From IMG/VR virus record IMGVR_UViG_3300010373_000016, positions 1-44,123 of that record: a stretch of DNA of 44,123 nucleotides. One strand, given 5' to 3'. Both the position numbers and the translations under genes were made by a program. The DNA comes from a virus. Below, piece after piece: positions 1,111 through 43,868 of this stretch (positions are counted from its first letter, which is position 1; the number at the start of each line of letters is the position of its first letter). Under the pieces are notes generated by a model. The model was given only the letters and a program-made list of their open reading frames with translations, did no database searches and was not told where the DNA came from.

Positions 1111-1158
1111 TTGCCAAAAGTTAAGCTGTAGCGTAAGCTGATAAGCTACCAGCTACAG
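1111..1158 (+). promoter_or_regulatory. Late promoter P1 with TTAAGCT motif cluster
   Basis: A -35-like TTGCCA (1111-1116) is followed after 17 bp by TAAGCT (1134-1139). Between them lies GTTAAGCTGTAGCGTAA, nearly the same as GTTAAGCTATAGCGTAA at 20115. Further copies of the half-site (TAAGCTG, TAAGCTA, AGCTAC) run to about 1155. The offset from the -35 box to TTAAGC is 10 bp, as at 20106. This is the likely promoter/operator of the packaging and head genes. Confidence 0.55.
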
Positions 1159-1172
1159 GGAGATACCTATAA

Positions 1173-1808
1173 ATGTCATCAGCTACTAAATCGCCTGACG
1201 CCGCGCTACGCGAGGCGGTCCAAGGAAAGTCTAAGTCACTTCCGCCTCATGTTGTCGCAACATTCACCGGGGACTACTACAAGTCCGCCGGCACCAAAGG
1301 CAAGGACTACGCACCGTACACTAAAGAGGTCAAAGTCCCTCTGTCCGTTATAGAGTTTGAAGGTCTTACACCCGTGGCGTTTTTCGAGAAACACCACGCC
1401 GAGAAAATGGTCCGCGAACTAGGCGGCATTGTCAGCGCCGATAGTCGACATACCCGTATCTGCGAACTGGTGGAAGTCAAAGGCGACTTACCGCGCGGGA
1501 TTACGCTAGATCAAAAACTCAATTGGACGGCAGACTACGCCAAGCTACGAGAGATCGCTATCGACATGGGCAAGGTTTCGTACGTCCGTATCGACTTGAT
1601 GGACGAGAAGCGCTACCAGGAAAGCGTAGCCATCATCCCTGAGCTGTACCCGACAGCCGCGAAGTTGCGAAACGCAATTAAGACTCTGAGTAATCCGGAC
1701 TCGCGGGAAGCTTTCGCCCGCGATCAAGCCAAGCTTGAACAGGATTACAAGGAAGGCAAAGGGATGCCGAAAGACATGCTGGCGGAGATCGCCGCTCTTG
1801 CAGACTAA
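1173..1808 (+). CDS. Hypothetical protein opening the late operon
   Basis: A 211-aa soluble protein that I do not recognise. It has no signal peptide or membrane segment. The N-terminus is Ser/Lys/Ala-rich, the middle (about residues 30-150) looks like a mixed alpha/beta domain, and the last 45 residues are charged and helical. GGGAG lies 10 nt before ATG 1173. It is the first gene behind promoter P1 and sits directly upstream of the terminase genes, so a role in packaging or early late-gene function is possible, but nothing in the sequence proves it. Confidence 0.75.
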   Translation: MSSATKSPDAALREAVQGKSKSLPPHVVATFTGDYYKSAGTKGKDYAPYTKEVKVPLSVIEFEGLTPVAFFEKHHAEKMVRELGGIVSADSRHTRICELVEVKGDLPRGITLDQKLNWTADYAKLREIAIDMGKVSYVRIDLMDEKRYQESVAIIPELYPTAAKLRNAIKTLSNPDSREAFARDQAKLEQDYKEGKGMPKDMLAEIAALAD

Positions 1809-1857
1809 TTTTCCTGACTCTGATTTCCAGCGCGCTACCGCAGAGCCACCGGCGCTA

Positions 1858-2190
1858 TTGACGCCGGTGGCTCCCTTCCAGCCTGAACCTGAAAAGCCGA
1901 AGTCTCTAAAAGAGCTGGCATCGAAGTACAGGGAGAAGGCAATCGACACTCTGGCAGAAATTCTCGACGACGAGAACGCCGGTCACATGTCGAAGATAGC
2001 CGCGGCTAATTCTATCCTTGACCGAACAGACGGCAAGCCCACTCAGTTCGTCGAGCAGACAACCAAGGTTCTCACCTATCAAGACTTACTGACTCAGATC
2101 GCAGTCAGAGAAGAAAAATTTGTGGAAGTCATAGAAGCGCAGTCAGTCAAGGAAATAGCGGCTGAAAAGGAATGGCGCGAACTCCTATGA
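1858..2190 (+). CDS. Probable terminase small subunit
   Basis: It directly precedes and overlaps terL, the usual place of the DNA-recognition subunit of the packaging motor. The core, LKELASKYREKAIDTLAEIL followed by KIAAANSILDRTDG, has the helical pattern (aa..L..il....a...R..AA..ildr..G) seen near the end of many small terminase proteins, and the C-terminus is a charged helix. The start is doubtful. The frame stays open back to TTG 1735 inside the previous gene, while TTG 1858 and GTG 1867 are the first candidates after that gene ends. None has a good Shine-Dalgarno sequence, so translation is probably coupled to the upstream gene. The end is fixed by the CTATGA overlap with terL. Confidence 0.6.
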   Translation: MTPVAPFQPEPEKPKSLKELASKYREKAIDTLAEILDDENAGHMSKIAAANSILDRTDGKPTQFVEQTTKVLTYQDLLTQIAVREEKFVEVIEAQSVKEIAAEKEWRELL

Positions 2191-3839
2191 CCGCCATGAG
2201 ACTGACTGAGCAAGAGATCGAGATTCACCGCCGGCTTGTTACCGACTACGAATTTTTCGCGCGCCACATCCAGAAGATCGAGCCAAAGGATCTGACCGAA
2301 CTTGACGGCGACGTCTTGGCTCAGTACGACGCCCTACACGGCGAAGACTCCATAGCCGGGATGATCCCGCTTGTCCCTCACCCGGGACAAAAGAGACTTC
2401 TGGGATTCCGCACGGCGATGCTTGCGGAGTTGGGCTTAGTGCGCGCTGCCCTAGTCAAGCCCCGTCAGGTCGGTTGGTCAACAATCATTCAAGGATTAGC
2501 GAACTGGCTAGCCGGCAAGACGCCGGGAATGAAGATCCATATCGTCAGCCACAACGCCGAGTCGACCCGGAAATTCTTGCGGCGAGCTCGGAAGATGGCA
2601 CTTGCCGCACCACCAACGGTGACGCCCGCCAAGCAAGTCGAGAACAGCAAAGAATTGATTTTTGCCAACGGCGCAAGCTATTCAATAGCCACCGCCGGAT
2701 CTCCTGACTCGGTCCGTTCTGATAGTTTCCACTTTGGTCATTTCTCCGAAGAGGCATTCTGGCCTGATCCGATAGCTTCCACCGGCGCTATCATTCCCGC
2801 CTTGTCCGACGGCGTAGGCTCAGAGGGCTACCGGGAATCTACCGCGCAAGGCCGCGGTACGCCGTGGCACCTATTCATTCAAGAATGTCTTGCCGGCGAG
2901 AACCGTTGGAAGGTGTTCTTCGATCCGTGGTTTGCTCACCCGAAATATCGCTTACAGCCGCCGGAAGGTTGGCGGCCGGACGAAGAGGCTTTGGAAGCGC
3001 AGCGGCTGTATAACCTCGACATGGCTCAACTCTACTGGCGAGCCATGAAGATCAAAGACCTCCGCGCCTTGTGGATGTTTAAGCAAGAGTTTCCGGCGAC
3101 CATTGACGAAGCGTTCCAGTCCTCAGCCAGTACGCTATACAATCCTGACGCTGTTACGCAGGCGCGGAAGAACGGTAGGCTCGGCATAATCGCGCCGGAC
3201 GCGCACGCCCCGATCATTATTGGCTGTGACCCGGCACGCACCGGCGACCGGACGGCATTAGCTATCCGCCAGGGAAGCGTACTCCATGAAGTACGCCGCT
3301 GGCCCAAAATGGATGATATGCAATTGGTAGGTATTATAGCCAATCTGCTTACTAATCCATATAAAGGACAGCACATCAAGAAATGCTTTATAGACTACGC
3401 CATAGGTCAAGGTGTAGTCAGTCGTTTACGGGAGCTAGGATTTTTTATGCAAGTACAAGCGGTCCATTTTGCAGAAGCGCCGACCGATCCGCGCTTCCTG
3501 AACAAGCGCGCAGAAATGTTTTTCAGTATCCGCGATTGGCTTGGCGACTCAGGCTTACTCGTCTCGATTCCTGATGACGAAGCGCTAGCAGCCGACCTTT
3601 TAGCTATTCCTGATTTCCTACAATCAATAGGATCGGAAAAGATTAAGCTGGCATCGAAAGACGAAATCAAGAAGGAATACGGCAGATCGCCGGACCTTGC
3701 CGACGCCGTAGCCTTGACCTTTGCCTACCCGGTGATGGGCGAGCGGATAGCTGAGCTACAGCAGTTCGCTAGGCACAACTTAACCCATGTGCCGGGCAGC
3801 GAGATAGCTAAGTTGATGAGTGACTTTGAAGCGCGGTAA
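2187..3839 (+). CDS. terL: Terminase large subunit
   Basis: ATPase and nuclease of the DNA-packaging motor. The N-terminal ATPase has a Walker A-like KPRQVGWST (about residues 91-99) and a Walker B-like HFSEEAFW (about 185). The C-terminal RNase H-fold nuclease shows its acidic residues in IIGCDPARTGD, FIDYAIGQG and SPDLADAVAL. At about 550 residues it has normal length. The ATG at 2187 overlaps the preceding stop (ATGA), which suggests translational coupling. ATG 2172 is also in frame, with AAGGA abutting it, which is too close to act as a Shine-Dalgarno sequence. The stop overlaps an ATG in TAATG at 3837-3841. Confidence 0.95.
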   Translation: MTAMRLTEQEIEIHRRLVTDYEFFARHIQKIEPKDLTELDGDVLAQYDALHGEDSIAGMIPLVPHPGQKRLLGFRTAMLAELGLVRAALVKPRQVGWSTIIQGLANWLAGKTPGMKIHIVSHNAESTRKFLRRARKMALAAPPTVTPAKQVENSKELIFANGASYSIATAGSPDSVRSDSFHFGHFSEEAFWPDPIASTGAIIPALSDGVGSEGYRESTAQGRGTPWHLFIQECLAGENRWKVFFDPWFAHPKYRLQPPEGWRPDEEALEAQRLYNLDMAQLYWRAMKIKDLRALWMFKQEFPATIDEAFQSSASTLYNPDAVTQARKNGRLGIIAPDAHAPIIIGCDPARTGDRTALAIRQGSVLHEVRRWPKMDDMQLVGIIANLLTNPYKGQHIKKCFIDYAIGQGVVSRLRELGFFMQVQAVHFAEAPTDPRFLNKRAEMFFSIRDWLGDSGLLVSIPDDEALAADLLAIPDFLQSIGSEKIKLASKDEIKKEYGRSPDLADAVALTFAYPVMGERIAELQQFARHNLTHVPGSEIAKLMSDFEAR

Positions 3840-3841
3840 TG

Positions 3842-3868
3842 TTAAGCTACGCCCGGAGGATAAGCTAC
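3842..3868 (+). promoter_or_regulatory. Pair of TTAAGCTA-type motifs at a gene start
   Basis: TTAAGCTA (3842-3849) and ATAAGCTA (3860-3867) lie directly before the GTG start of the next gene, with the Shine-Dalgarno GGAGG between them. A nearly identical arrangement stands before the gene at 13654. Placement over a translation start inside an operon is what dispersed stoperator sites look like. Confidence 0.4.
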
Positions 3869-4171
3869 GTGGGATTTGGTGGATTATTTCATAGCGGTCC
3901 GTCTAGCGCTCAGATAAACGTGCAGAACGATTATCAAGCAGTAGCGGCAGCAGAACAAGCCCAGCAGCAACAACAGGCAGCCGCGAACGCGGCTGCGGCT
4001 GCGCAGGACAGACAAACTATCGCCACTACGCAGCAGCAGTTTTCTAGCTCCATTTCCAACAAAGCAGCTGAGGCCGCAGTGCAACTCGGAATCCTGAACT
4101 ATATCAAGACAAGTCCTGAAGGTCTTTCGAATAGTCCGAAGACTGGCAGGCTGACATTGTTGGGGAACTAG
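3869..4171 (+). CDS. Small Gln/Ala-rich virion-associated protein with GFGGLF start
   Basis: A protein of about 100 residues between TerL and portal. The start is GTG 3869, with GGAGG 9 nt upstream; an upstream ATG at 3839 is in frame but puts the conserved start inside the protein. It begins MGFGGLF, the same seven residues as the gp14-like internal protein at 13654. Residues about 30-60 are a Gln/Ala-rich helical stretch (AEQAQQQQQAAANAAAAAQ), followed by a Ser-rich piece and a short helix. Function is unknown. The shared N-terminus and the position suggest a head- or core-associated minor protein. Confidence 0.7.
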   Translation: MGFGGLFHSGPSSAQINVQNDYQAVAAAEQAQQQQQAAANAAAAAQDRQTIATTQQQFSSSISNKAAEAAVQLGILNYIKTSPEGLSNSPKTGRLTLLGN

Positions 4172-6022
4172 ATGGAAGCAGGCACACCTTACTACGGAGA
4201 CGGTAATTCGCTTGGTAATCTGACCATGCGGAAGTACCGACAGATGCTCACGCACCGTGACGGAATGCGGAACATCATCCGTTTGTTGTCCAAGTTCATT
4301 TTGCTGCGCAATGCTTGGTTTGGTGATTCAAGCTATCCAAATAGAGTGGTGCGGCTATCTGTTACTGACGTTTCCGACGATACCGCCATTGATGCCTCTC
4401 GTTCAGCTTCTACAGCTTTTGCCGCCGCGCTCTGGCCCAACGCCGAAGAATCCTTCGAAGCCGTCCCACATCCTTTAATGCGTACGTCAGTCGAAGGCGA
4501 AGCTTTGCTACTTGACGAGGAAGTGAAGCGTTACTATGACCACATGACACACAAATTCCGCCAGCCATTCGCAGAGGCGGATTCGAACTTTTTGATCTCT
4601 TGGGGCGAACACTGGGACGAACAGATCGTACTTGGCACCAGTGGTATTTACGCCGAAGAGGACGAGTATAACGACGAGATTCCATGCCGATTCAAGACTC
4701 TTTCGATTGAGACTTGCGTTATCGACGAAGGACCGGATCACAGAGTTGATACCTTCGCCATGGAGTACACATGGACCGTGCGCATGGTCGTCGAGAAGTA
4801 TGGCATCGAGAACTGTTCGGCTCAGCTGCAAGAGCTTTACGGCACACCGGAAGGTCAAGACAGCTACGTCAAGATCATCTGCATGGTGCGTCCGCGGACA
4901 GGCATTAGCCCGATGGCGGACAAACGCGAAAAGAAAAACAAGCCTTACGCTTATATTTGTATGGAAGTCGCCACGCTGAACGTGCTTTACGAAGGCGGCT
5001 TGGACGAATTGTCTGGGTTTATGGCGAGATTCCGTAAACGCCCCGGCGAACTTTACGGCCGTAGTCTTGCCATGGATGCACTACCGACCGTAAAAGAGCA
5101 GAACGTTCTGCGTCGCGGATTCAGCTTGGCGCTCGGCAAGCAACTCGATCCACCGATTGGCTTCCGTCAAGATCAACTTGGCGGTGCTGGCACCGTCGAT
5201 ATTTCGATGGGTGCCAAGGTTCCGATTTACGATACTGGCGTCATTCCGCAAAGCCGTCCGCCGGTCGAGCCGCTAATCACGGTTCCTGAGCCGCGTGTAG
5301 CTAATGAGCGGATGACGAATATCGAAGAGAAGATAAATCAGAAATTCTTACTCGATAAGTTGTTGGACTTTAACAACAAAACACGGATGACGCTTGGCGA
5401 AGCGCAACTGCGGACAGACTTCCGTAACCAGGCGCTCGGCAATTTATTCGCGCGTCAAATGACAGAAATATTGCACCCGCTCATTATGTGGGTAATCCGT
5501 CTGTACTGGCGGCGCGGATTCTGCGGACTACACCCGGTCAAAGACTTCGTCACTATCCAACTTATGAAGCAGGCAGGACAGCAGCCGCTAGTCATGCCAA
5601 AACCGGTGGCGGACTTCTACGACAAAACCGGCAAACTTCCATTCGCAATCCGGTTTACCTCGCCGGCAGCTCGCGCTATGCGCGCTGATGCACTTATGGG
5701 CCTCGAGAAGCTGACGAACTTCGTGCTGGCACTCGTGACCGGCGGCGCAGCCGAAGCGATGGATAATCTCGACGTCGACGAAACTGTAAGGCTCTATCAG
5801 CACCACGTAGGCGCACCGAACAAAGCACTGCTTCCGGCAGACAAGCGGGACAAGGCGCGGAAGATCCGGCAACAAGCGCAGGCGAATATCCGTAATCTCG
5901 AAGCGCAAGAACAACAATCAGTCGTCGCTAAGAACCAGGCGAAGGCAGCAAAAGACAACGCACAAGCCGGCGTAGGTCAAGCGCCACAGCAACAGGGAGC
6001 ATTAAACATTGGGGCGGCGTAA
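4172..6022 (+). CDS. Portal / head-to-tail connector protein
   Basis: A 616-aa protein of the T7 gp8-like connector family, which forms the dodecameric ring at the capsid vertex through which DNA is packaged. Family features are the N-terminal helical region (RQMLTHRDGMRNIIRLLSKF), the clip/stem region and a conserved core such as RFRKRPGELYGRS (about residue 290). The C-terminal tail (about 555-616) is charged, Gln/Ala-rich and probably helical, as in barrel-bearing portals. It starts immediately after the previous stop (TAGATG), with GGGGA upstream. It lies between terL and the scaffold gene, as expected. Confidence 0.92.
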   Translation: MEAGTPYYGDGNSLGNLTMRKYRQMLTHRDGMRNIIRLLSKFILLRNAWFGDSSYPNRVVRLSVTDVSDDTAIDASRSASTAFAAALWPNAEESFEAVPHPLMRTSVEGEALLLDEEVKRYYDHMTHKFRQPFAEADSNFLISWGEHWDEQIVLGTSGIYAEEDEYNDEIPCRFKTLSIETCVIDEGPDHRVDTFAMEYTWTVRMVVEKYGIENCSAQLQELYGTPEGQDSYVKIICMVRPRTGISPMADKREKKNKPYAYICMEVATLNVLYEGGLDELSGFMARFRKRPGELYGRSLAMDALPTVKEQNVLRRGFSLALGKQLDPPIGFRQDQLGGAGTVDISMGAKVPIYDTGVIPQSRPPVEPLITVPEPRVANERMTNIEEKINQKFLLDKLLDFNNKTRMTLGEAQLRTDFRNQALGNLFARQMTEILHPLIMWVIRLYWRRGFCGLHPVKDFVTIQLMKQAGQQPLVMPKPVADFYDKTGKLPFAIRFTSPAARAMRADALMGLEKLTNFVLALVTGGAAEAMDNLDVDETVRLYQHHVGAPNKALLPADKRDKARKIRQQAQANIRNLEAQEQQSVVAKNQAKAAKDNAQAGVGQAPQQQGALNIGAA

Positions 6023-6320
6023 GAAACAAGAGGTCGCAACACCTACGCTTATAGCGGAGCTGCAAGCACTGGGCTTGTCTGTCGAAGACGTTTTGCGCGC
6101 TTTCGACTCAGTAGCTAACACGCCGGACGGTGAGATTGTCTTGCGAGCGATCTTCGAGCTGTCGCGCTATGACAAAGGGGTCATGACCTACGACGCCAAC
6201 ACCAGTGATCTCAACGTCAACGCGACGATTTATAACCTATCAAAGCGCGACGTATGGCTGAAGTTTCGCCAGTATCTGACAGCGGAAAAACGTGCCCTAA
6301 TCGAAAACAAGGAGAACTAA
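6009..6320 (+). CDS. Bbp19-like small protein
   Basis: A 103-aa protein starting at TTG 6009, overlapping the portal end by 14 nt, with GGGAG 9 nt before the TTG. The pattern TPDGEIVLRAIFELSRY, then a short loop, then ...YNLSKRDVWLKFRQYLT resembles the Bbp19 family (known from phage BPP-1), found between portal and capsid genes of temperate podoviruses. Its biochemical role is not known to me. It is predicted soluble and helical. The start Met-Gly-Arg-Arg-Lys-Lys is strongly basic. Confidence 0.6.
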   Translation: MGRRKKQEVATPTLIAELQALGLSVEDVLRAFDSVANTPDGEIVLRAIFELSRYDKGVMTYDANTSDLNVNATIYNLSKRDVWLKFRQYLTAEKRALIENKEN

Positions 6321-6324
6321 TCAA

Positions 6325-7248
6325 ATGGATGGAGTCGCAGTAGAAACAGGTGGTGGCATTGCAGCCACCGTACCAACACAGGGAGCGCCCCCCGCGCCGG
6401 CACCAGCAATGCCAGCATTTATGGATATCGTGCCGGCGGACTTGAGAGAAGAACAGTTCGTAAAGGACTTTGCTAAGGCAGAAAATCCCTTTGATGCTCT
6501 TTTCAAAGGCTATAAAGGCGCTCAAGAGCTGATCGGCAGAAAGTCAAATGCTGTCGAGATCCCCGGCGAGAACGCAACGCCTGAACAGGTCCAAGCTTAT
6601 CGCAAAGCAGTCGGCGTTCCAGAAACGCCGGACGGTTATAAATTTTCTGAGCGTGACCTGTCGAAAGAACCGGAAGCTGTTCAGAAAGTTTGGAAGGCCA
6701 GCGGCAATGACGCGCTGTATAAAGTAGTGGCGCAGGCAGCGCACGAAGCTGGGATCCCGCCGGCTCAGCTGGCTAAGCTAGTCGAGACGGTCGAAGGGCA
6801 TAACCTGAACCAGATCAAGACTATGGTTGCCGCCGCACAACAAAGCGCCGAACAGCAAAACGTCAAGATCAAAGAGGACTTCGCCAAGTTCTATGGTGGT
6901 CAGGACAAAGCCGACGCCGCGCGCCGGATTGGCGAAGAGACTTTGAAAAAAGTCGGGATGCCCAAAGAGATCGCGCAGATGGGAGCGGACGCCGCCCTTA
7001 TCTGGTTGGCTAATACTTTGCACCAGAAGGTTTACAGCAATGACAAGCTTTCTACGAATGGCGGTGGCGCACCACAAATGACCAAACAGGAGCTCCACAA
7101 CAAGATCATGCAGGAACGCGCTAAAACCGATCCGCGCACCGGCAAGCCAATCTATTCAGATAAAGCGCATCCTCAGCACAAACAACACTTTGCCTACGTT
7201 CAATCCTTATATAAGGATCTACACGAAATGGGCACGTCAAGCGAATAG
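6325..7248 (+). CDS. Scaffolding protein
   Basis: A 307-aa acidic/helical protein directly before the capsid gene, the standard scaffold position. A Pro/Ala-rich flexible N-terminus (about 1-35) is followed by FVKDFAKAENPFDALFKGYKGAQ, a motif typical of podovirus scaffolds, then long amphipathic helices, and a basic C-terminal segment likely to contact the shell (TDPRTGKPIYSDKAHPQHKQ). GGAG lies before ATG 6325. It should guide procapsid assembly and then leave. The unit is closed by the perfect hairpin at 7281-7308. Confidence 0.85.
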   Translation: MDGVAVETGGGIAATVPTQGAPPAPAPAMPAFMDIVPADLREEQFVKDFAKAENPFDALFKGYKGAQELIGRKSNAVEIPGENATPEQVQAYRKAVGVPETPDGYKFSERDLSKEPEAVQKVWKASGNDALYKVVAQAAHEAGIPPAQLAKLVETVEGHNLNQIKTMVAAAQQSAEQQNVKIKEDFAKFYGGQDKADAARRIGEETLKKVGMPKEIAQMGADAALIWLANTLHQKVYSNDKLSTNGGGAPQMTKQELHNKIMQERAKTDPRTGKPIYSDKAHPQHKQHFAYVQSLYKDLHEMGTSSE

Positions 7249-7280
7249 CTTTGAATGCGGGACGGACGAAATACGTGCTG

Positions 7281-7311
7281 ACGACCTCGGATTAATTTCC
7301 GAGGTCGTTTA
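7281..7311 (+). terminator. Terminator between scaffold and capsid
   Basis: A perfect 10-bp stem ACGACCTCGG/CCGAGGTCGT with an AT-rich 8-nt loop is followed by TTT. The U-tract is short, so it may be partial. It separates packaging/scaffold transcription from the capsid promoter. Confidence 0.7.
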
Positions 7312-7313
7312 GC

Positions 7314-7349
7314 TATAGCTTGACAGATAAGCTATAACCGTAGTCTAAT
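7314..7349 (+). promoter_or_regulatory. Late promoter P2 with overlapping inverted operator
   Basis: A consensus -35 TTGACA (7320-7325) is followed after 18 bp by TCTAAT (7344-7349). Inverted arms TATAGCTT (7314-7321) and AAGCTATA (7329-7336) overlap the -35 box and spacer, as expected for a repressor operator. It drives the capsid gene separately from the packaging genes. Confidence 0.65.
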
Positions 7350-7350
7350 T

Positions 7351-7472
7351 ACGGCCGTGGGTAGCCCGAGAGCGGGGTCCACAGTCTAAAGAGTGTCCGG
7401 CATAGTCCGGGGAGCGCTTCCAAGACCGACAGCCAAAAGAAGGTTTGTCACTCTCTTGGAGCGTTTTTCGCT
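7351..7472 (+). ncRNA. Structured capsid leader with RBS-sequestering hairpin
   Basis: This 122-nt leader contains a hairpin with stems GTGG/CCAC and GCCC/GGGG (7357-7382). It ends in a 10-bp stem with one bulge (7415-7425 with 7454-7463) followed by TTTTT. The only Shine-Dalgarno candidate, GGAG 7458-7461, lies in the 3' arm of that last stem, 11 nt before the capsid ATG. The last hairpin could act as an attenuator or translational switch. No known riboswitch class is recognised. Confidence 0.5.
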
Positions 7473-8369
7473 ATGTCAGATTTAAACGTCACGATTCAAC
7501 AGCACTGGGTTAACTCGTTCAGCGACACAGTTTTTGAACTTGCCCAGCAAACGAAAGCGCGACTGCGCGAACTCTGCGAATTTGAGCCGATTGTCGGCGC
7601 CAATAGATTCCTGGATCGGGTCGGCAGCGTCGACGTTCAGGACATCAATACCAGATCTCCTGAAATCGTGCCGTCTGACCTGCAATGGGACAGACGCCTC
7701 GCCACGCCTAACCGCGTGGGCGTTGCGTTCTTCGTAGACCGCAGGGATATCGAGCGCGTTCTGACCGATCCTAAGAGCACATACGCCAAGCGTGCGGCAC
7801 AAGCTCTGGAACGCGACTTTGACCGCACCTGTATTTCCAGTTTGGCCGCAACCGTCTTTACTGGACAGAACGGCACCACTCCCGTTACCGCCGCCACTGA
7901 CGGCGTCGCTACGGTGGACGGTACTCCTGGCTTCACTTATGACCTGATGCTGCAGGTAGACCAAAACTTCCAAGCTTACGAGATTGGAACGGAAGTCGGA
8001 CTGCGTAAATTCTTGCTGATCTCTGAGCAAGAACACGCACAGCTCATGAAAGAAGGCGAGCTGATCAACAAAGACTTCACTGACCGCGCCGTGGTTGATT
8101 CCGGCAAGATCAAGCAAGTCATGGACTTCGACGTAGTTCAGTTCGGATCCAAGATGCCTATTCCGATGCTGCCGGTAACGGGTTCCGTCCGTCAGTGCTT
8201 CGCCGCCGTTTCCGGTCAAATGAAGGTCGTCATGCCTTCGACCTGGGATATCGAATGGCAGCCGCGTAACGACCGCTGGAAGACTGATCAACTGCTCGCC
8301 TCCGGCGAACGCGGCTTTGTCCGTATGCAGGGTCAAGGCATCCAGATCATTAACGCCACTGCGACATAA
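7473..8369 (+). CDS. Major capsid protein
   Basis: A 298-aa protein in the capsid position after the scaffold. The sequence (LRELCEFEPIVGANRFLDRVG ... QWDRRLATPNRVGVAFFVDRRD ... ALERDFDRTCI) matches the pattern of podovirus major capsid proteins of the BPP-1/T7-like temperate group, which build the icosahedral shell. It has its own promoter (P2) and a structured leader, consistent with the high demand for this protein. No N-terminal scaffold or protease domain is fused to it. Identity rests on context and general family pattern, not on a unique motif. Confidence 0.85.
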   Translation: MSDLNVTIQQHWVNSFSDTVFELAQQTKARLRELCEFEPIVGANRFLDRVGSVDVQDINTRSPEIVPSDLQWDRRLATPNRVGVAFFVDRRDIERVLTDPKSTYAKRAAQALERDFDRTCISSLAATVFTGQNGTTPVTAATDGVATVDGTPGFTYDLMLQVDQNFQAYEIGTEVGLRKFLLISEQEHAQLMKEGELINKDFTDRAVVDSGKIKQVMDFDVVQFGSKMPIPMLPVTGSVRQCFAAVSGQMKVVMPSTWDIEWQPRNDRWKTDQLLASGERGFVRMQGQGIQIINATAT

Positions 8370-8424
8370 GCAGCGGAATAACGGCGGACTAATTCAAATT
8401 TCAAGCTAACGCAGAGGAAAGACC

Positions 8425-8949
8425 ATGGCTGTACAAAATTACTGGAACAACCTGACCAACAACCCGCCGCAGGCAACGCCGGCAGGACAGGACGCAGAAT
8501 ACTCCAACACTGGTATTCGTCCTCATATCCTAGAGAACAGCGCTTCTGTGGCGGCGGCAGACAGCTCCGGTTCTACTTATCTCCTGTTCAAAAACGTTCC
8601 TTGGAACGCCCGGCTTAGAGAGCTGAAGCTTGAGAACGACAACTTAGGCGCCGGCGCTCAGATCCAGATCGGACTGGCTGATTCCCGCACCGGCACTATC
8701 ATAAGTGCGACCTGTCTGTCAGCCGCGCAAAGCGCCGCTGCCGCTAATGGCAAGAACGCACCGCTTGATGGGCTCGCCGCTCTGACTCACGCTCAGACCT
8801 TGCAGGCTCTGTACGAAACTGCACTCGACACGCCGATCCCTCCGCAGGGACCGTACCGGTTTAACTATGACGTTGTGATGACGCTAAGTACTGCCGGCGG
8901 TTCCGCAGGCGTTGTCACCGCACGCGGCATACTGACGCCGGCAGGCTAA
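8425..8949 (+). CDS. Capsid-stabilising (cement) protein, probable
   Basis: A 174-aa Ala/Asn/Thr-rich beta-type protein immediately after the capsid gene. GAGG lies before ATG 8425. The segment STYLLFKNVPWNARLRELKLENDNLGAG... suggests a jelly-roll-like fold with a long insertion of small residues (TCLSAAQSAAAANGKNA). In BPP-1-type phages the equivalent gene codes for the cement protein that stabilises the shell, and I infer the same here from position. There is no signal peptide or membrane segment. Function is an inference. Confidence 0.6.
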   Translation: MAVQNYWNNLTNNPPQATPAGQDAEYSNTGIRPHILENSASVAAADSSGSTYLLFKNVPWNARLRELKLENDNLGAGAQIQIGLADSRTGTIISATCLSAAQSAAAANGKNAPLDGLAALTHAQTLQALYETALDTPIPPQGPYRFNYDVVMTLSTAGGSAGVVTARGILTPAG

Positions 8950-8989
8950 ACCAAGCCTGACGGAACACACTACCCCGAAGAGGATGATC

Positions 8990-9592
8990 ATGCGCAAAAT
9001 TGTTCTAGCTATCTTGACTTTATTCACTGTCGCACTGCCGGCGGTGGCGCAGGTCAGTGAACCTCTGCAGTTCGAATATAAGTTCCGAGCACCGGCACTC
9101 TTCACCAAAACCGCCGTTTTCACGATTGGATCCGGCGGGCAGAAAATGGATAACTACGGCACCATTTTCCGCACGCAAGGAACTGTTAGCTCGGTTACTT
9201 CCGGCACGACTACCGTAGGCGTGACGCTTCCGGCTCGCACACTTATCTCGAACGGGCACGGTATTCGGCTGCGCGTTGCGGGACGCTGCGCAGCTAACGC
9301 TAACGCCAAGACGATTAACGTCGTATTCGGCTCGGCCACAATTCAAATTCTCAACGCCGTAGCGTCAAACGGCAAGGATTTTTATGCTGACGTGATGATT
9401 TACCGTACTGGACTGAATGCTCAGCAAATCTCGGTAGCCGGCTATGCCAACGGCGCGCTTATCGACAACCTGTCTACGGCGACTACGCAAGTAGAGACCG
9501 GCACACTTGCCTTGCAAGTGCAAGTCCCAGCCTCAACAGGTGCCGCCGACGTTGTGATCAACGACGTTTCGATTTTCGGTGAATCTGGGTAA
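8990..9592 (+). CDS. Secreted beta-rich protein in the head module
   Basis: A 200-aa protein with a clear Sec signal peptide: MRKIVLAILTLFTVALPAVA followed by Gln, an A-x-A cleavage site. The start at ATG 8990 fits AGAGG 6 nt upstream better than ATG 8984. The mature part is beta-rich with many Thr/Ser/Val/Gly repeats (TVSSVTSGTTTVGVTLPARTL), and its tail contrasts with ordinary soluble capsid genes. A virion protein assembled in the cytoplasm would not need Sec export. It may therefore be exported to the periplasm or surface during infection, or the signal-like segment may act in membrane contact. Function is unknown. Confidence 0.75.
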   Translation: MRKIVLAILTLFTVALPAVAQVSEPLQFEYKFRAPALFTKTAVFTIGSGGQKMDNYGTIFRTQGTVSSVTSGTTTVGVTLPARTLISNGHGIRLRVAGRCAANANAKTINVVFGSATIQILNAVASNGKDFYADVMIYRTGLNAQQISVAGYANGALIDNLSTATTQVETGTLALQVQVPASTGAADVVINDVSIFGESG

Positions 9593-9607
9593 TGGCGGAG
9601 GTCTTTT

Positions 9608-10324
9608 ATGGCCTCGCCTTTAACGTGGGTCGATCTAAGTAATCTCGCGCTTCTGTCCTGCTACCAGAAGCCGATTACTAATATCGAAGATACCGACGAC
9701 CCTGCTGCCGTCGCCGCCAATCTCCTTTACGACCAAGTACGTCAGGAAGAGATCCGCGACGGTACTTGGAATTTCGCGCGAGCCCGGACAACGATCCCGC
9801 TCCTGCCGAACGTCACGCCGCTGACTGATTACATCGGCGCGTATCAGCTGCCGGTGGATTGCCTGAAGCTACACCACATCGGCACTGAATACGACTTGTG
9901 GAGTCCGCATTACCACGACGTCGTAGCGCAAAAGATCGTTTACTTCGGGCAGGCTGGCGATAGCTGGAATCTGATGAACGGCGATGAAAGCCCAGATCTC
10001 AACGATTTTCCTCCGAACTCGCTTTTTATCGAATACACATCGGACATAACTGACGTGTCTTCGATGGATGCCCTTTTTAAGAAAGTCCTACGCTACGCCC
10101 TGGCGAAAGAGTTTTGCATGGCGCTAAGTGGCGACGTGAAGACGCGCCAGCTTATGGAACAGCTCTACATGCAAGCGAAGCGTGAAGCTGCCGCTATCAA
10201 CCATCAAGAGCGCCCCATGCGCATCGTCGAGCGGGATCCGGTCGCATTGGCACGTCTCATGGATACGGAAATCTGGGACGGTCAGATACCTGTGCCGCCG
10301 TCGCTCTGGCCAACAGGAGAGTAA
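9608..10324 (+). CDS. Tail tubular protein A (gp11-like)
   Basis: A 238-aa adaptor that joins the portal to the nozzle. The family pattern YDQVRQEEIRDGTWNFARAR (about residues 45-64) is typical of T7 gp11-like proteins, where a segment ending W.FA..R is conserved. The rest is helical with a beta insert. GGAGG lies upstream of ATG 9608. It is followed after 3 nt by the gp12-like gene, with which it forms the tail tube. Confidence 0.88.
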   Translation: MASPLTWVDLSNLALLSCYQKPITNIEDTDDPAAVAANLLYDQVRQEEIRDGTWNFARARTTIPLLPNVTPLTDYIGAYQLPVDCLKLHHIGTEYDLWSPHYHDVVAQKIVYFGQAGDSWNLMNGDESPDLNDFPPNSLFIEYTSDITDVSSMDALFKKVLRYALAKEFCMALSGDVKTRQLMEQLYMQAKREAAAINHQERPMRIVERDPVALARLMDTEIWDGQIPVPPSLWPTGE

Positions 10325-10327
10325 GCC

Positions 10328-19407: not shown

Positions 19408-19408
19408 C

Positions 19409-29457: not shown

Positions 29458-29469
29458 ACCATATACGGT
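29458..29469. promoter_or_regulatory. Candidate RHH operator ACCATATACGGT
   Basis: A near-perfect palindrome (10 of 12) upstream of the RHH gene. ACCATATGTGGT at 42906-42917 shares the frame ACCATAT..GGT. The AAGCTATA-type motif on the minus strand (29480-29488) lies next to it. Confidence 0.4.
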
Positions 29470-29483
29470 ATCACGTTTATAGC

Positions 29484-39433: not shown

Positions 39434-39605
39434 TGGCTACGTTCTCCGGTATCGTGTAGGGGCAGACAGGCAGTACGGGACGCTTGCATGACGCGCATGT
39501 GAGCGCGCTTGGGTCCCATACGCTACGGACAATCGTATGTCCGCGTCCCTCGGCTAGTACCCAGTTGACGGCGAAAGTGATTATTTGTTTGGCTGTGCGA
39601 TTCAT
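39420..39605 (-). CDS. Small Cys-containing protein, 61 aa
   Basis: Start ATG 39605 overlaps the upstream stop as ATGA. An N-terminal helix (AKQIITFAVNWVLAEGRG) is followed by a possible zinc site, TCASCKRPVLPVC (about 36-48). It lies in the chain of short coupled genes leading to prim-pol. I do not recognise the family. The product may help the HNH-like protein that follows, which is a guess from order only. Confidence 0.58.
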   Translation of the reverse strand: MNRTAKQIITFAVNWVLAEGRGHTIVRSVWDPSALTCASCKRPVLPVCPYTIPENVASVST

Positions 39606-39763
39606 GCTTCCGCCTTCTTCTGCAACGTCTGGTAGGGCTGGCGCTGTTCTAGCATCGTCAGCAGTACGTCGAGGTGATCTAATGACCTGGCGACGGTAGC
39701 TTGTTCCTCACGCGCCTTGCGTAATGTCTTACGCATGTGGGCTAGTTCTCGTTTTGTTAGCAT
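39602..39763 (-). CDS. Small helical protein, 53 aa
   Basis: ATG 39763 to TGA at 39602-39604, ending in ATGA overlap with the next gene. It encodes MLTKRELAHMRKTLRKAREE, then a helix (ATVARSLDHLDVLLTMLE) and a basic tail. It looks like a short coiled-coil protein. It is the first gene of the prim-pol operon, about 56 bp behind the inverted repeat at 39820. The Shine-Dalgarno is weak (GGCGGG). Confidence 0.6.
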   Translation of the reverse strand: MLTKRELAHMRKTLRKAREEQATVARSLDHLDVLLTMLEQRQPYQTLQKKAEA

Positions 39764-39819: not shown

Positions 39820-39869
39820 CGTAGCTTACAAAATGTAAGCTACGACGGTCAATACACTACCGGTAGTGT
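39820..39869. promoter_or_regulatory. Replication-operon promoter flanked by two palindromes
   Basis: On the minus strand the -35 TTGACC (39847-39852) starts TTGACCGTCGT, the same 11-mer as at 20106. About 18 bp downstream lies TAAGCT as a -10. A perfect 10-bp inverted repeat CGTAGCTTAC/GTAAGCTACG (39820-39844, 5-nt spacer) covers the spacer and -10. A perfect 16-bp palindrome ACACTACC/GGTAGTGT (39854-39869) lies just upstream of the -35. Operators or an origin element are likely. Confidence 0.6.
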
Positions 39870-39877
39870 GGGCAGGC

Positions 39878-40183
39878 TCAAAGGCACGCCAGCCATGGAT
39901 CGGTTATATCGTCCGTTACTACTTGCGGTAGCGTATCGGATTGCTTAGTCATATCTCTTTTGATCTGATTAGCTGCCGATCTTCCCGGACGTTTTTTGCC
40001 GGGTACCCAATGAGTACCCGGGACGTGGCTTGCCATGATGACTTTGCAGTCAAAATAGTCTTGTGGCTCGAAAATAATGTTCTTGCCGACCCTCTTATGA
40101 GGCAAGATGCCCTTACGGATAAGGGCCTTGATGTTGGAGACAGTCGAGTTAGTATCTCGCGCCAAGTTTTGAATCGTATACAT
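39878..40183 (-). CDS. Helix-turn-helix DNA-binding protein (MerR/excisionase-like)
   Basis: A 101-aa protein. Residues 1-50 fit a winged HTH of the MerR/excisionase type: MYTIQNLARDTNSTVSNIKA, then LIRKGILPHKRVGKNIIF, with the typical 'R.GR.I.F' wing. The C-terminus is basic (GTHWVPGKKRPGRSAANQIKR). The start overlaps the previous stop as TAATG. It stands directly upstream of the promoter with two palindromes, so it may regulate that promoter. Excisionase is the alternative, although it lies far from int. Confidence 0.75.
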   Translation of the reverse strand: MYTIQNLARDTNSTVSNIKALIRKGILPHKRVGKNIIFEPQDYFDCKVIMASHVPGTHWVPGKKRPGRSAANQIKRDMTKQSDTLPQVVTDDITDPWLACL

Positions 40184-40428: not shown

Positions 40429-41199
40429 TTAACAGGTCACGTCGAGGAACTCGCTTCCAGGCGTTTTCATTTCGATCAGAACTTGCACAGCAAACTCAGC
40501 CACGTCTACCAGAATTTGCTCACGAGCAGCAGCAGCAGCAGCAGCAGCATCAGCAGCACGAGCAGCAGCATCAGCAGCAGCAGCAGCATCAGCAGCATCA
40601 GCAGCAGCAGCAGCACGAGCAGCAGCATCAGCAGCAGCAGCAGCATCAGCAGCATCAGCAGCAGCAGCATCAGCAGCAGCACGAGCAGCAGCAGCAGCAG
40701 CATCAGCAGCATCAGCAGCAGCAGCATCAGCAGCAGCACGCCCGCTAGTCAGATCGACTGCCTGGCTGCACAAGGCTGCATGCGCTTCCAACGCTTCACG
40801 GTGCGCTTGTATTGGATGTACCGAGGCGGCTGCGCGTAGTGCGATTGGCGTTAGTGTATTGATAGTGTACATGGCTATCTTTTCGACAAATAGAACATAA
40901 TTGAAATTGTCTCTGGTTCCGAGTGATGCTAACGCTAAGCGCTTCAATCCAGCTGCGCGGGATTCCGGCGAAGTCCAGCCGTAAGCGTCATTCATACCGA
41001 TATTGAATGATGTCAAAATCTCGTGTACGCAGCTGGATTTATCCGCTGGCATTTCGGACTGCGGGTCGTCGAAAATCAAATGAATAGCTTGCATGACGCA
41101 CACATCTCCGGGCCAGTCATTCTCGCCTTTACCGCTGCAGAGTCCTTTCTTGAGCAAGTCTGTGAGCTTGCAGGTGTTGGCTTGATTCAATTCGATCAT
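40429..41199 (-). CDS. Phage protein with conserved N-terminus and Ala/Asp repeat helix
   Basis: A 256-aa protein starting at ATG 41199 with GAGG upstream. Residues about 1-150 have the pattern of a common phage small-protein family (DVCVMQAIHLIFDD ... PADKSSCVHEILTSFNIGMND ... AAGLKRLALASLGTRD). Residues about 155-226 are almost only Ala with Asp and a few Arg (AAADAAAADAADAAAAAAR and so on), encoded by a repeat of GCT codons. This should form one very long alanine-rich helix of about 100 Angstrom. The last 30 residues are a normal helix. Function is unknown; ice-binding-like or structural roles are only guesses. Confidence 0.78.
   Translation of the reverse strand: MIELNQANTCKLTDLLKKGLCSGKGENDWPGDVCVMQAIHLIFDDPQSEMPADKSSCVHEILTSFNIGMNDAYGWTSPESRAAGLKRLALASLGTRDNFNYVLFVEKIAMYTINTLTPIALRAAASVHPIQAHREALEAHAALCSQAVDLTSGRAAADAAAADAADAAAAAARAAADAAAADAADAAAAADAAARAAAAADAADAAAAADAAARAADAAAAAAAAREQILVDVAEFAVQVLIEMKTPGSEFLDVTC
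40525..40738 (-). repeat. GCT/GAT trinucleotide microsatellite in coding DNA
   Basis: About 70 consecutive codons on the minus strand are nearly all GCT (Ala) with GAT (Asp) and CGT (Arg) at irregular spacing. Larger duplicated units, such as DAADAAAAADAAARAA, occur twice. Slippage changes the helix length but keeps the frame, since the unit is three bases. This is extraordinary in a genome with otherwise normal complexity. Confidence 0.95.
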
Positions 41200-41624: not shown

Positions 41625-41656
41625 TGTCAATATCTCCCGATTGATGTTATAGTGGG

Positions 41657-41732
41657 TGCAGGTGGTGGGATTCGAACCCACAAATTGCCCGTACTGCGAA
41701 TACGTTGCGTCTGCCATTTCCGCCACACCTGC
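41657..41732 (-). tRNA. tRNA-like gene with Leu-type body and CGC anticodon
   Basis: All helices form: acceptor GCAGGTG/CACCTGC (7 bp), D-arm GCG/CGC with a Leu/Ser-type large loop, and T-arm GTGGG TTCGAAT CCCAC. The anticodon arm (ACGTA/TACGG, loop TTCGCAG) gives CGC, which reads Ala GCG. The variable region is only 7 nt although the body looks like a class II tRNA-Leu. The 3' end reads A then CCC, not CCA. It may be a recoded, degenerate or suppressor-like tRNA. Confidence 0.75.
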
Positions 41733-41738
41733 ATAAAG

Positions 41739-41766: not shown

Positions 41767-41886
41767 TTACGCCGCCCAGTTAATAGGGCAGGCGCAACGG
41801 TGCCGCAGTAATGCGCGCTTCAATGCCAAGCGCATACGAACTCGTTCCCAGAGTAGCTGCCGTGTTGACGATAGCTTAATGCTCAT
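41767..41886 (-). CDS. Small basic protein, 39 aa
   Basis: ATG 41886 (GGGAG 9 nt upstream) to TAA at 41767-41769. It encodes an Arg/Leu-rich amphipathic helix (LSSTRQLLWERVRMRLALKR) and ends RHRCACPINWAA with two Cys. The start lies 2 nt after the preceding stop. It could be a small nucleic-acid-binding protein. The Shine-Dalgarno makes it credible. Confidence 0.55.
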   Translation of the reverse strand: MSIKLSSTRQLLWERVRMRLALKRALLRHRCACPINWAA

Positions 41887-41888: not shown

Positions 41889-42080
41889 CTAGATTCTCCC
41901 TGTGAATGACATAGCGTAGGGCATCGCCACTACGCGCCCGTCTTTACGCACATGCAAGCGGACAGACTCGTTAGCCTTCACATCAAGGCGCTGCGAGTGT
42001 TTGGCTGTCCACATCCACTTGCCGGACACAAACCTCTCAGTCAGTGCCGCTGTCGTCAGCTTGAATCTCAAGAAAACCAT
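41889..42080 (-). CDS. Hypothetical 63-aa beta-type protein
   Basis: Start ATG 42080, preceded by GGGAGGG with 5-nt spacing. The sequence MVFLRFKLTTAALTERFVSGKW...VKANESVRLHVRKDGRVVA suggests five short strands, a small barrel-like fold. It is the last gene before the regulatory hub. Function is unknown. Confidence 0.6.
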   Translation of the reverse strand: MVFLRFKLTTAALTERFVSGKWMWTAKHSQRLDVKANESVRLHVRKDGRVVAMPYAMSFTGRI

Positions 42081-42103
42081 GTTATCCCTCCCAGTCAACA
42101 TAA

Positions 42104-42187
42104 CCGTAGCTTATCACAGCTTATCGGGATACGCTACGGGCTAAGCCGTGTCGTCGAGATAGTTAAGCTATAACTTTAGTTAAGTCG
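42104..42187. promoter_or_regulatory. TTAAGCTA motif cluster, left edge of regulatory hub
   Basis: Copies: TAGCTTAT (minus orientation, 42106), CAGCTTAT (42117), CTAAGCC (42141), TTAAGCTATAAC (42163-42174) and GTTAAGTCG (42179-42187). They stand in the gap between the last minus-strand gene and a small plus-strand ORF, as expected for a switch region. Confidence 0.5.
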
Positions 42188-42215: not shown

Positions 42216-42317
42216 ATGAAAAGCGATCAGGTCTTGGAGACTGGTGAAATGCTGATTGTATGGAGTCTGATCACCTGTTACTTGATTTTGGCAAACTTTG
42301 GGATGTTGTTTGGGTAA
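42216..42317 (+). CDS. Small plus-strand membrane protein, 33 aa
   Basis: An ORF from ATG 42216 to TAA 42315-42317: MKSDQVLETGEMLIVWSLIT, then CYLILANFGMLFG. It has one membrane segment. It is the only plus-strand gene inside the minus-strand block, in the regulatory hub, which is where lysogeny-expressed exclusion genes often lie. The GGAGG is far away unless the palindrome folds. Followed by a hairpin at 42338-42366. Confidence 0.45.
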   Translation: MKSDQVLETGEMLIVWSLITCYLILANFGMLFG

Positions 42318-42374: not shown

Positions 42375-42481
42375 TTAAGCTATATCGCGGCGGGTACGAC
42401 TCACCAGTCACGTAGTTAAATCGTACCTTTAAAGAGAAGCCAGCCCTCATACTATTGTCTACAATTAAGTTAAGTCGTATC
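42375..42481. promoter_or_regulatory. Hub operators: TTAAGCTA and GTTAAGTCGTATC copies
   Basis: TTAAGCTA at 42375-42382, GTTAAATCGTACC at 42415-42427 (11 of 13 like the next) and GTTAAGTCGTATC at 42469-42481. An exact inverted copy of the last one stands at 43029-43041, and its first 9 bases also at 42179. These four copies surround the 90-aa gene. Confidence 0.5.
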
Positions 42482-42545: not shown

Positions 42546-42818
42546 CTAAACTGGATCTACTAGATGCATTTCTGAGCGTCGTTCGGCGGCTAGTTCTTCT
42601 GCTAGAAACGCTGCTGCAATGCGTCGTTGGCCGGGCGACATTGCTTTTACTCTTGCTTCTACCGTTGTCCTTGCCTCTCTGTGGAGACGTGCTTGCAGAA
42701 TGTCATCTGGCGTCCAATTGCCTATCTTAGTTGCGGCTTTGGCTAGTATCCGCTCAGCTTTCTGGGGAGGCAGAGCCTTCAAAGCTTCAGCTACTGCGCG
42801 CTTCAGTGAATCAGTCAT
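42546..42818 (-). CDS. Hypothetical regulator candidate, 90 aa
   Basis: Start ATG 42818, with GAGG 7 nt upstream. The protein is helical and basic (SLKRAVAEALKALPPQKAERILAK ... TIVEARVKAMSPGQRRIAAAFLAEE, approximately). It stands alone between four copies of GTTAAGTCGTATC-type sites, with its own extended -10 promoter and terminator, the position of an immunity gene. No classic HTH is evident, so the regulator role is inferred from context only. Confidence 0.55.
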   Translation of the reverse strand: MTDSLKRAVAEALKALPPQKAERILAKAATKIGNWTPDDILQARLHREARTTVEARVKAMSPGQRRIAAAFLAEELAAERRSEMHLVDPV

Positions 42819-42905: not shown

Positions 42906-42917
42906 ACCATATGTGGT
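42906..42917. promoter_or_regulatory. ACCATATGTGGT near-palindrome
   Basis: Contained in CACCATATGTGGTG with 5-bp inverted arms. It shares ACCATAT..GGT with the site before the RHH gene at 29458. The gap 42851-43083 holds no convincing gene, only this, the operator at 43029-43041 and an AGCTTAGCTA element at 43061. Confidence 0.4.
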
Positions 42918-43083
42918 GGCATAGGTGGGTAAAAGGAGTGTCCCGCTACCCCCTACTGCACCCATTGCGGCGCGGCGCGCGAGCCCGGCCAAAGGGAGCA
43001 TACACCCCAAGCCCAAAAATTCAGAAACGATACGACTTAACTAAAAACCGCAACAGCACTAGCTTAGCTATCGACCTACTATA

Positions 43084-43335
43084 CTAACTAATAGTCGAAA
43101 GATTACGCTTATCGCGCCAGGATTTAATACCGCACCAAAACCGTCGCAAGGCGTACCATCCTCCTAATACAACTAGAAGCGCCAGTACACCGCAGTCATC
43201 TCCCTGCCGACGGATCACACAGACGAGAAGAAATAGCGCTAGCCCTGGCACTACTATCCTCCATCCGACAGCGCAGCCGGTCACGCATACGGAAAGAAGT
43301 ACCGCAGCCTCTAAGGTCGTATTAATGCTACTCAT
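43084..43335 (-). CDS. Small membrane protein, 83 aa
   Basis: Three hydrophobic stretches are visible (LEAAVLLSVCVTGCAVGW, IVVPGLALFLLVCVI and VLALLVVLGGWYAL), then a basic tail with RRFWCGIKSWRDKR. The start overlaps the upstream stop as TAATG, so it is coupled to the 170-aa gene. Early expressed membrane proteins of phages often exclude superinfection; that is a guess here. Confidence 0.62.
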   Translation of the reverse strand: MSSINTTLEAAVLLSVCVTGCAVGWRIVVPGLALFLLVCVIRRQGDDCGVLALLVVLGGWYALRRFWCGIKSWRDKRNLSTIS

Positions 43336-43847
43336 TACTGACGGTGTTCGGCACCGAAGGAAGTGCCTTCATAAAAGCCGCGAAGCCATTCATTATCTGT
43401 ATTTTGCGGAGCGGGAACAAGGCGCTTTTCGAAAGCGAGAAGAATGCCGGCGTGAAAACCTCTATAGTAGCTAGAATTTCCGTCGCCCTCTACAGCATGT
43501 TTAAGAGATGAAGAAGCCAAGCTATGAGTAGTTGGCAGCGCTAAAACTTGCTTAGCTTTTAACTCCCGATCTCTTTCGGCTCGGGCAGCCGCACTGCCTT
43601 TAGCTTCCTGTTCGGCACAGAAGCGGTTAACACATTCAACATGGGCAGCGGTCTTATTATCCTTGCCCGGGTTGGCGGTTGGCAGATATATAGCTTCGCC
43701 CTCCTTTATATGATGGCGACAAGCTTTGATCCGGCAGCGTAAACCGTCTTGCCTGGTAGCTGCCGGCTTGACTATAGCGCGAGATTTCAATTCAAAAGCC
43801 GCCTCCAGTTCGGAAGCAGCATCCCAGCGAAAGCGAGTATCAGTCAT
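43335..43847 (-). CDS. Hypothetical 170-aa protein, first early gene
   Basis: Start ATG 43847 with GAGG upstream, 22 nt downstream of the promoter at 43869-43896. It contains a possible zinc site: CRIKACRHHI (about 37-46) and HVECVNRFC (about 68-76), a pattern like small Zn-finger domains. The middle is helical and charged, and the C-terminus has YYRGFHAGILLAFEKR and WLRGFYEGTSF, two similar aromatic/Gly segments. Function is unknown. It is the first gene transcribed on the minus strand, next to attP. Confidence 0.65.
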   Translation of the reverse strand: MTDTRFRWDAASELEAAFELKSRAIVKPAATRQDGLRCRIKACRHHIKEGEAIYLPTANPGKDNKTAAHVECVNRFCAEQEAKGSAAARAERDRELKAKQVLALPTTHSLASSSLKHAVEGDGNSSYYRGFHAGILLAFEKRLVPAPQNTDNEWLRGFYEGTSFGAEHRQ

Positions 43848-43868
43848 ATATGTACCTCGTAGCTTAAC

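Follow-up and report, generated by a model that had tools for sequence, protein, structure and literature searches.

A dispersed heptad motif and its dyads as probable operators of a single regulator in a temperate phage genome

What is the function of a short word that recurs in the gaps between the genes of a phage, at its early as well as its late transcription units? This question is raised by IMG/VR virus record IMGVR_UViG_3300010373_000016, which was analyzed over its whole length of 44,123 bases (hereafter, the window). The record carries a 123-bp terminal repeat, so the genome is probably circularly closed. The original prediction, made from the sequence alone, proposed that an 8-mer, TTAAGCTA, is an operator or promoter motif dispersed over the phage in the manner of the stoperators of mycobacteriophage L5, and that one regulator acts through it on early and late units. 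Here, the motif is described as a 7-bp unit, TAAGCTA, which occurs singly and in head-to-head dyads, and its sites are interpreted as probable operators of one phage-encoded transcription regulator, for which a lysogeny repressor is the most likely identity.

All seven positions listed for TTAAGCTA (3842, 13645, 20116, 26313, 42163, 42375 and, on the minus strand, 43860) are exact, and an eighth copy was identified at 41872 on the minus strand. The chance expectation of approximately 1.3 copies is correct for uniform random sequence, and the statement that nearly all copies lie in gaps or at gene boundaries is a fair one, the copy at 41872 being located near the start of a small open reading frame (ORF); the variants reported at 1121–1155, 7314–7336, 39820–39844 and 42104–42187 are real. 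Comparison with shuffled or simulated sequence gave an excess far above expectation and stronger than had been claimed. The 7-mer TAAGCTA is a better core, with 28 copies in the window versus 4.89 expected under an order-3 Markov model, and the approximately 3.1 kb of gaps contain 16 of these copies versus 0.62 expected (Poisson p ~1e-17). The copies at 13628 and 13646 count as non-coding if the ORF at 13170–13676 is cut at 13620 (16 non-coding and 12 coding copies) and are taken as coding on the strictest gene map, which leaves 14 non-coding copies; an earlier map gave 13 coding and 15 non-coding copies, the latter versus two Markov means, 0.66 (maximum 4) and 0.95 (maximum 6), from 500 simulations each. 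The non-coding count of TAAGCTA ranks first among 420 anagrams (mean 0.5). Within the gaps, variants with one altered base at the central G or C hardly occur (0 or 1 copy each), and some changes at core positions 1, 2, 3 and 7 are found two to five times. Position −2 is G or T in 16 of 16 non-coding sites (14 of 14 on the strict map) versus 5 of 12 coding sites, indicating that the gap copies form a separate class. Motif discovery on the gaps, suggested earlier in the form of MEME, was of less help: an unconstrained expectation-maximization search ended in a general AT-rich signal and was abandoned.

The pairing of the heptads into dyads is a feature absent from the original account. With at most one mismatch per half-site, four head-to-head pairs at exactly 7 bp were identified (starting at 1122, 7309, 20117 and 20145), all of which are non-coding, whereas 400 simulations of the gaps gave on average 0.0175 such pairs and never more than one; every other offset or arrangement reaches at most two non-coding pairs. 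When the whole window is considered, tail-to-tail pairs at 12 bp likewise reach four, two of those in genes. The head-to-head pairs constitute a 14-bp palindrome, TAAGCTATAGCTTA, and with up to two mismatches this dyad occurs five times in the window, versus approximately 0.1 expected (30 simulations). The dyads are positioned at 1122–1135, 7309–7322, 20117–20130, 20145–20158 and, in a less perfect form, 42164–42177. No head-to-tail pair at 7-bp steps and no run longer than two abutting heptads was found; direct pairs 18 bp apart are present at 3843/3861 and 13628/13646, and inverted pairs at 29441/29480 and 39822/39836.

The placement of these sites relative to promoter-like sequences was analyzed with a textbook sigma-70 matrix, and the 45 best sequences were listed. 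A site lies inside or directly beside three of the six best, and the second to fourth are without one. The top score of the window belongs to TTGACA-18-TCTAAT (7320–7349, plus strand), located before the major capsid gene (7473–8369); in the plus-strand cluster at 7309–7334, the dyad 7309–7322 overlies its −35 box and the heptad 7328–7334 falls in its spacer. The fifth best, TAGACA-18-TATAGT (43867–43896, minus strand), belongs to the first early gene, and a heptad (43860–43866, minus strand) directly follows its −10 box, 12 bp before the gene at 43335–43847. The sixth best, TTGACC-17-TAAAGT (20106–20134, plus strand), is positioned upstream of the ORFs preceding the endolysin gene; a dyad begins in its spacer, and the array there (20102–20158, plus strand) consists of a heptad at 20102 on the minus strand, the dyad 20117–20130, a heptad at 20136 and the dyad 20145–20158. 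Lower-ranked promoter-like sequences with a site nearby start at 13583 (TTGCGA-16-TACAAT, score 9.4), 41485 (9.0), 1111 (TTGCCA-17-TAAGCT, 9.0, for which the heptad at 1134 serves as the −10 box) and 41865 (8.7). A consensus promoter tool applied to positions 1–20000 gave no excess over shuffles (10 versus 13.3); it missed the sequence at 7320 because the second hexamer is without the required A at position 2. TTGACA precedes the capsid gene in the window, in the relatives L012 and L009, in the L016 genome, in the G013 prophage and in the L052 phage.

Conservation of the sites in related phages, through which the original prediction had proposed to judge them, was partly observed. In L012, the terminase, portal, capsid and tail tube proteins of which show 54–61% identity to those of the window, TAAGCTA occurs eight times versus 1.7 expected, and five copies are non-coding versus 0.33 expected; L055, which is the same sequence as L012 (103 of 103 sampled 60-mers), was excluded from the counts. 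At the junction between the terminase gene and the next gene, the blocks conserved between L012 and the window are the two motif copies, the second in the form TAAACTA, with a spacing that differs by 2 bp from that in the window; GGAGG is present in both phages. The second copy of the pair that includes the 13645 site is also kept in L012; this stretch overlaps the end of an ORF, so coding constraint may contribute to its conservation. L012 also retains the capsid promoter, in which a diverged site, GATTAGTTTAG, takes the place of the GATAAGCTATAA of the window, and the locus matching 20117 falls beyond the L012 contig. The other relatives, however, show no non-coding enrichment of TAAGCTA, and the 14-bp dyad (up to two mismatches) is absent from L011, L009, the L016 genome, the L052 genome and the G013 prophage and occurs once, in coding sequence, in L012.

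A different word was found in the L016 genome, a more distant relative: GACAGATTA is present in eight copies, six of which are non-coding versus 0.02–0.04 expected. One of these sites is at the capsid promoter (41467), another precedes the homologue of the gene at 1173 (34523), and three are found before the first early minus-strand gene (33540, 33575 and 33699), loci that correspond to the window sites 7328, 1122–1148 and 43860; this correspondence is a post hoc observation outside any formal test, and the early genes were matched by position, not by detected homology. Two further L016 words, AGCGAAGC and CACAGCAGG, outscored GACAGATTA in the gaps in at least one of two tests; they were ruled out as dispersed words because 16 of 18 and 9 of 9 copies, respectively, fall within one repeat stretch at 28.9–29.5 kb and are thus local.

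We propose that the regulator reads 7-bp half-sites, TAAGCTA, with a preference for G or T followed by A or T before the core and for pyrimidine-purine after it. The five head-to-head 14-bp dyads would probably be the strong sites, and the single or loosely paired heptads at gene junctions weaker, auxiliary ones. At the capsid promoter, bound protein would lie over the −35 box and spacer; at the promoter preceding the lysis region it would occupy the spacer, and at the early minus-strand promoter the start region. In this way one protein could silence both early and late units in the prophage, and at the junction sites it may additionally slow elongation in the manner of stoperators. The proposal of one regulator for early and late units stands as far as the placement of sites at both units and at the best promoter-like sequences is concerned; a single binder that would repress these units during lysogeny is inferred.

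The first candidate for the binder is a predicted ribbon-helix-helix protein of 67 amino acids (29220–29423, minus strand; Pfam RHH_1, 33.8 bits, cut-off 20.5), an assignment that is tentative and carries a somewhat less than even chance. A 7-bp unit that occurs singly and as abutting inverted pairs fits what is known of ribbon-helix-helix proteins by analogy. A homologue with 61% identity is encoded by L011, which shares a metagenome number with L012 and is possibly the same phage; the L016 genome, which has a different motif, gave no ribbon-helix-helix match. Against this candidate, L011 has no copy of TAAGCTA, either near the homologous gene or elsewhere. The second candidate, a rather doubtful one, is a putative winged-helix protein of 101 amino acids resembling MerR and HTH_17 (39878–40183, minus strand), with matches below the Pfam cut-off. 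A homologue is encoded by the L016 genome, as would be expected if the two phages shared a regulator with altered specificity. An ordinary helix-turn-helix dimer could likewise read a 14-bp dyad, but no repressor of that kind was recognized among the early proteins scanned. The predicted structure of this protein has a mean pLDDT (predicted local distance difference test score) of 74 and gave no PDB match at E 0.001; the best structure matches, all with E of at least 0.07, included the DNA-binding domain of pSK1 Par, RacA, MerR proteins, phage Pukovnik Xis and BldC.

Several observations weigh against the operator interpretation. The proximity of sites to promoter-like sequences is statistically weak, with 3 of the 16 non-coding sites versus a background of 0.058 at a score of 9.5, and 4 of 16 versus 0.104 and 6 of 16 versus 0.20 at the lower cut-offs of 8.5 and 7.5; the promoter argument rests on which promoters carry sites, not on a general association. 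The excess of TAAGCTA inside genes is not accounted for by operators. In L012, TAAGCTA is only tenth among the enriched non-coding 7-mers, behind CTTGACA and others, and the locus matching 1122 has no exact TAAGCTA and a single TAAGCTG. Both copies in L009 are coding, and L011 has none though it encodes the ribbon-helix-helix homologue. The word is not enriched in the L016 genome (eight copies; 3 versus 4.6 expected in the first 14 kb), and it occurs four times in the L052 genome and once in the G013 prophage. The best word of the L052 genome, ATCAGTTTC (four copies), is absent from its capsid promoter, and in neither the L052 genome nor the G013 prophage was a word found that links the capsid promoter with other loci. 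Finally, no canonical repressor was recognized with Pfam or PHROGs among the early proteins scanned.

Would the same sites serve a different purpose? Binding of a phage-encoded activator of late or middle genes, instead of a repressor, is unlikely, even though sites occur at late promoters and recur in clusters and a MerR-like winged-helix protein is encoded. MerR activators bind within promoter spacers. The capsid promoter already has a perfect −35 box and five of six matches in its −10 box and so should need no activator; the −35 box, the spacer or the start region is where the sites are positioned, and the early promoter also carries one. It is quite unlikely that the sites are stoperators in the strict sense of L5, most of them stopping elongation with their promoter overlaps incidental. 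The orientation of the sites favors that explanation. The left arm, on the plus strand, encodes the terminase, head-tail adaptor, major capsid, tail and internal virion proteins and the endolysin (20825–21313), and the right arm, on the minus strand, encodes the DNA polymerase, a DUF2800 protein, an SNF2 helicase, a Dam-type methylase and a VapE-like protein; 12 of the 16 non-coding sites run with the transcription of their arm and four run against it (p 0.04). The sense-oriented fraction is 16 of 21 when L012 (4 of 5 alone) is added (p 0.013) and 22 of 27 when the L016 genome with its own motif (6 of 6) is added as well (p 0.0008), the counts for L012 and L016 having been compiled by hand. 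The pair at 3843/3861 is also without a promoter-like sequence among the 45 best listed. However, on the strict gene map the preference is reduced to 10 of 14 (p 0.09; 13 of 18 with L012, p 0.05; 19 of 24 with L016 too, p 0.003), the pair at 13628/13646 has the promoter-like sequence at 13583 upstream, and the dyads are symmetric, three of the five (1122, 7309 and 20117) lying on promoter-like sequences.

An element acting in RNA, such as a signal for translation initiation or in a leader, would explain why eight non-coding copies are located at most 25 bp upstream of a start codon and why all seven exact non-coding copies of the left arm are sense-oriented; it is nevertheless very unlikely because antisense copies are present in the right arm and in L012 and because the heptads form head-to-head dyads, and some copies lie in promoter spacers, upstream of the expected transcript. 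Codon-pair or compositional bias spilling into the gaps is extremely improbable. It draws on the 12–14 copies located inside ORFs, depending on the gene map, which exceed expectation (13 versus 1.6, maximum 5, in 100 synonymous shuffles; 12 versus 3.6 under the Markov model), and on an in-frame AAG CTA (Lys-Leu) reading in 9 of the 10 sense-oriented copies within ORFs (13628 and 13646 included), so that a codon-pair effect may account for part of the excess in genes; yet the excess is far larger in non-coding DNA, where the copies also show dyads and a preferred flank not seen in the coding ones, which speaks against bias as the whole account. A role in replication, packaging or partition has scarcely any likelihood: the repeated heptads resemble the centromere repeats of the ribbon-helix-helix protein Omega (PMC9499535), but the sites are dispersed at promoters and junctions instead of forming one array, and the phage encodes an integrase.

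The comparison with L5 held in part. According to two studies, cluster A stoperators (L5 and TipsytheTRex) comprise 20–30 sites genome-wide, some in promoters and most not, with many in short intergenic spaces; they are mainly sense-oriented and differ in sequence between relatives (PMC9283540, PMC6550527). The phage motif shares this dispersal and the concentration in gaps (28 copies, 16 of them non-coding versus 0.62 expected); its preference for the sense orientation varies in strength with the gene map (12 of 16, p 0.04, versus 10 of 14, p 0.09). In the cluster A phages, a monomeric repressor of two domains binds the stoperator, which is asymmetric and 13 bp long, whereas the phage core is 7 bp long, with weak preferences over approximately 11 bp, and some sites are symmetric 14-bp dyads and four are antisense. 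No L5-type repressor was matched with Pfam or PHROGs among the early proteins scanned, a comparison that did not include a direct run of an L5-repressor profile. The motif would work as a dispersed operator system does, and it is at most a putative member of the stoperator family. The SPBRE of SPbeta is a 15-bp element dispersed over many promoter regions of a single prophage and bound by one master repressor, MrpR (PMC10516654); the phage motif is likewise dispersed and found at promoter regions, with a shorter core (7 versus 15 bp). MrpR has a tyrosine recombinase fold, and in the subset of phage proteins scanned only the integrase matched that family; in the studies consulted, the L5-type repressor and MrpR possess unrelated folds. 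Omega (ParB) of pSM19035 is a ribbon-helix-helix protein that binds one 7-bp non-palindromic heptad, WATCACW, per dimer, the heptads lying in both orientations and in contiguous runs of 7–10 that overlap promoters (PMC9499535). The phage resembles this system in its 7-bp repeats abutting at 7-bp steps (the four head-to-head pairs) and in encoding a ribbon-helix-helix protein; unlike Omega heptads, those of the phage are pairs and singles of another sequence, and their binding is predicted. Among the matches listed in a literature search on phages of Obscuribacter, Melainabacteria and Vampirovibrionia and on TAAGCTA operators, the titles and opening lines of abstracts mention no such system, which is no proof of absence. 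The C1 operators of phage P1 are asymmetric 17-bp sites scattered over the phage genome and belong to an unrelated repressor.

The remaining sites are distributed over both arms. The plus-strand cluster at 1122–1148, with the dyad 1122–1135 and heptads at 1134 and 1142, precedes the gene at 1173–1808. Two heptads 18 bp apart (3843–3867, plus strand) lie between the terminase stop and the next gene, the start of which is probably GTG at 3869, and two others with the same spacing (13628–13652, plus strand) precede the gene at 13654–14184 within the 3′ end of the ORF at 13170–13676. The two virion-region genes behind these similar arrangements, 3869–4171 and 13654–14184, both begin with (M/V)GFGGLF, perhaps a duplicated gene start. 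A heptad at 26314–26320 (plus strand) marks the junction of the convergent arms, in the last bases of the minus-strand ORF 26313–26870. The ribbon-helix-helix gene is preceded, at distances of 17 and 56 bp, by two inverted heptads (29441–29486), and two others, with 7 bp between them (39822–39842), are upstream of a small ORF (39602–39763). On the minus strand, the heptad at 41872–41878 encodes Lys-Leu in frame near the start of a small ORF (41767–41886), two heptads in the same orientation (TAAGCTA and TAAGCTG; 42107–42123) are upstream of the gene at 41889–42101, and a heptad at 43060–43066 falls in the gap between the genes at 42546–42818 and 43084–43335. On the plus strand, the imperfect dyad with two mismatches (42164–42177) is upstream of a small plus-strand ORF (42216–42317), and a heptad at 42376–42382 is located 3′ of a GC-rich inverted repeat spotted by eye. 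A second repeated word, GTTAAGTCG, has three copies in the window, at 42179 and 42469 on the plus strand and 43033 on the minus strand, all in the early region.

The phage is marked as temperate by a tyrosine integrase gene (124–1056, plus strand; Pfam Phage_integrase). All 42 bp of the attP core (43977–44018, minus strand) agree with the 3′ end of tRNA-Ala(GGC) genes from Candidatus Obscuribacterales, and a 40-base attP pattern with one position free matched three stretches of the genome collection, all from Candidatus Obscuribacterales or Candidatus Obscuribacter. One of these three genomes, G013, contains a prophage on contig 19 (34974 to ~77480) that is bounded by a shared 18-bp repeat, lies at the same tRNA, encodes an integrase with 53% identity and has distantly related head and tail genes. 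On account of the attachment site and the related prophage, Candidatus Obscuribacterales is probably the host. This order is little known and uncultured, and comprises non-photosynthetic relatives of cyanobacteria. The density of TAAGCTA is 635 per Mb in the phage versus 26–59 per Mb in four Obscuribacterales genomes, where it is 11–24 times rarer, and a host-wide motif was thereby ruled out. A near-identity DNA search of a phage collection with the first 25 kb returned no matching record, a profile search of genome-collection contigs with the terminase alignment found no relative, and a search for the protein 43335–43847 in 53 Obscuribacterales genomes, run without a positive control, gave no match.

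A broader proposal, speculative and on balance improbable as a whole, is that in a family of Obscuribacterales phages a small ribbon-helix-helix protein acts on heptads and dyads as a genome-wide lysogeny switch at early, capsid and lysis promoters, and that relatives keep the loci and exchange the word, which would create immunity groups. Dispersed operator systems have been described from few phages. If true, this one would be built on short heptads and dyads in phages tied to an uncultured order, its relatives seemingly keeping the regulated loci while changing the word read there; immunity groups would then be predictable for phages not yet grown because the words are readable directly from the gaps.

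Several features unrelated to the heptads were also observed. The capsid leader (7345–7477) is strongly conserved as DNA and foldable, with 7 of 20 predicted pairs changing on both sides among four phages. A covariance model of it matched its four training sequences and none of 17 other sources, and later also matched L055 (identical to L012) and the L052 phage (E 2.8e-13), on which the model had not been trained; a search of Rfam with the leader gave no match at E up to 1. The gene at 40429–41199 includes a long alanine-rich repeat and contains 38 of the 42 window copies of CAGCAGCA, the commonest 8-mer, and an isrG match at 40488–40727 (39 bits, cut-off 100) was set aside since it falls in this gene. 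The repeated words of L010 constitute a 15-bp tandem repeat, probably a pentapeptide-repeat gene. Two tRNA genes, Met(CAT) and Ala(CGC), are encoded on the minus strand of the window at 33855–33929 and 41653–41733.

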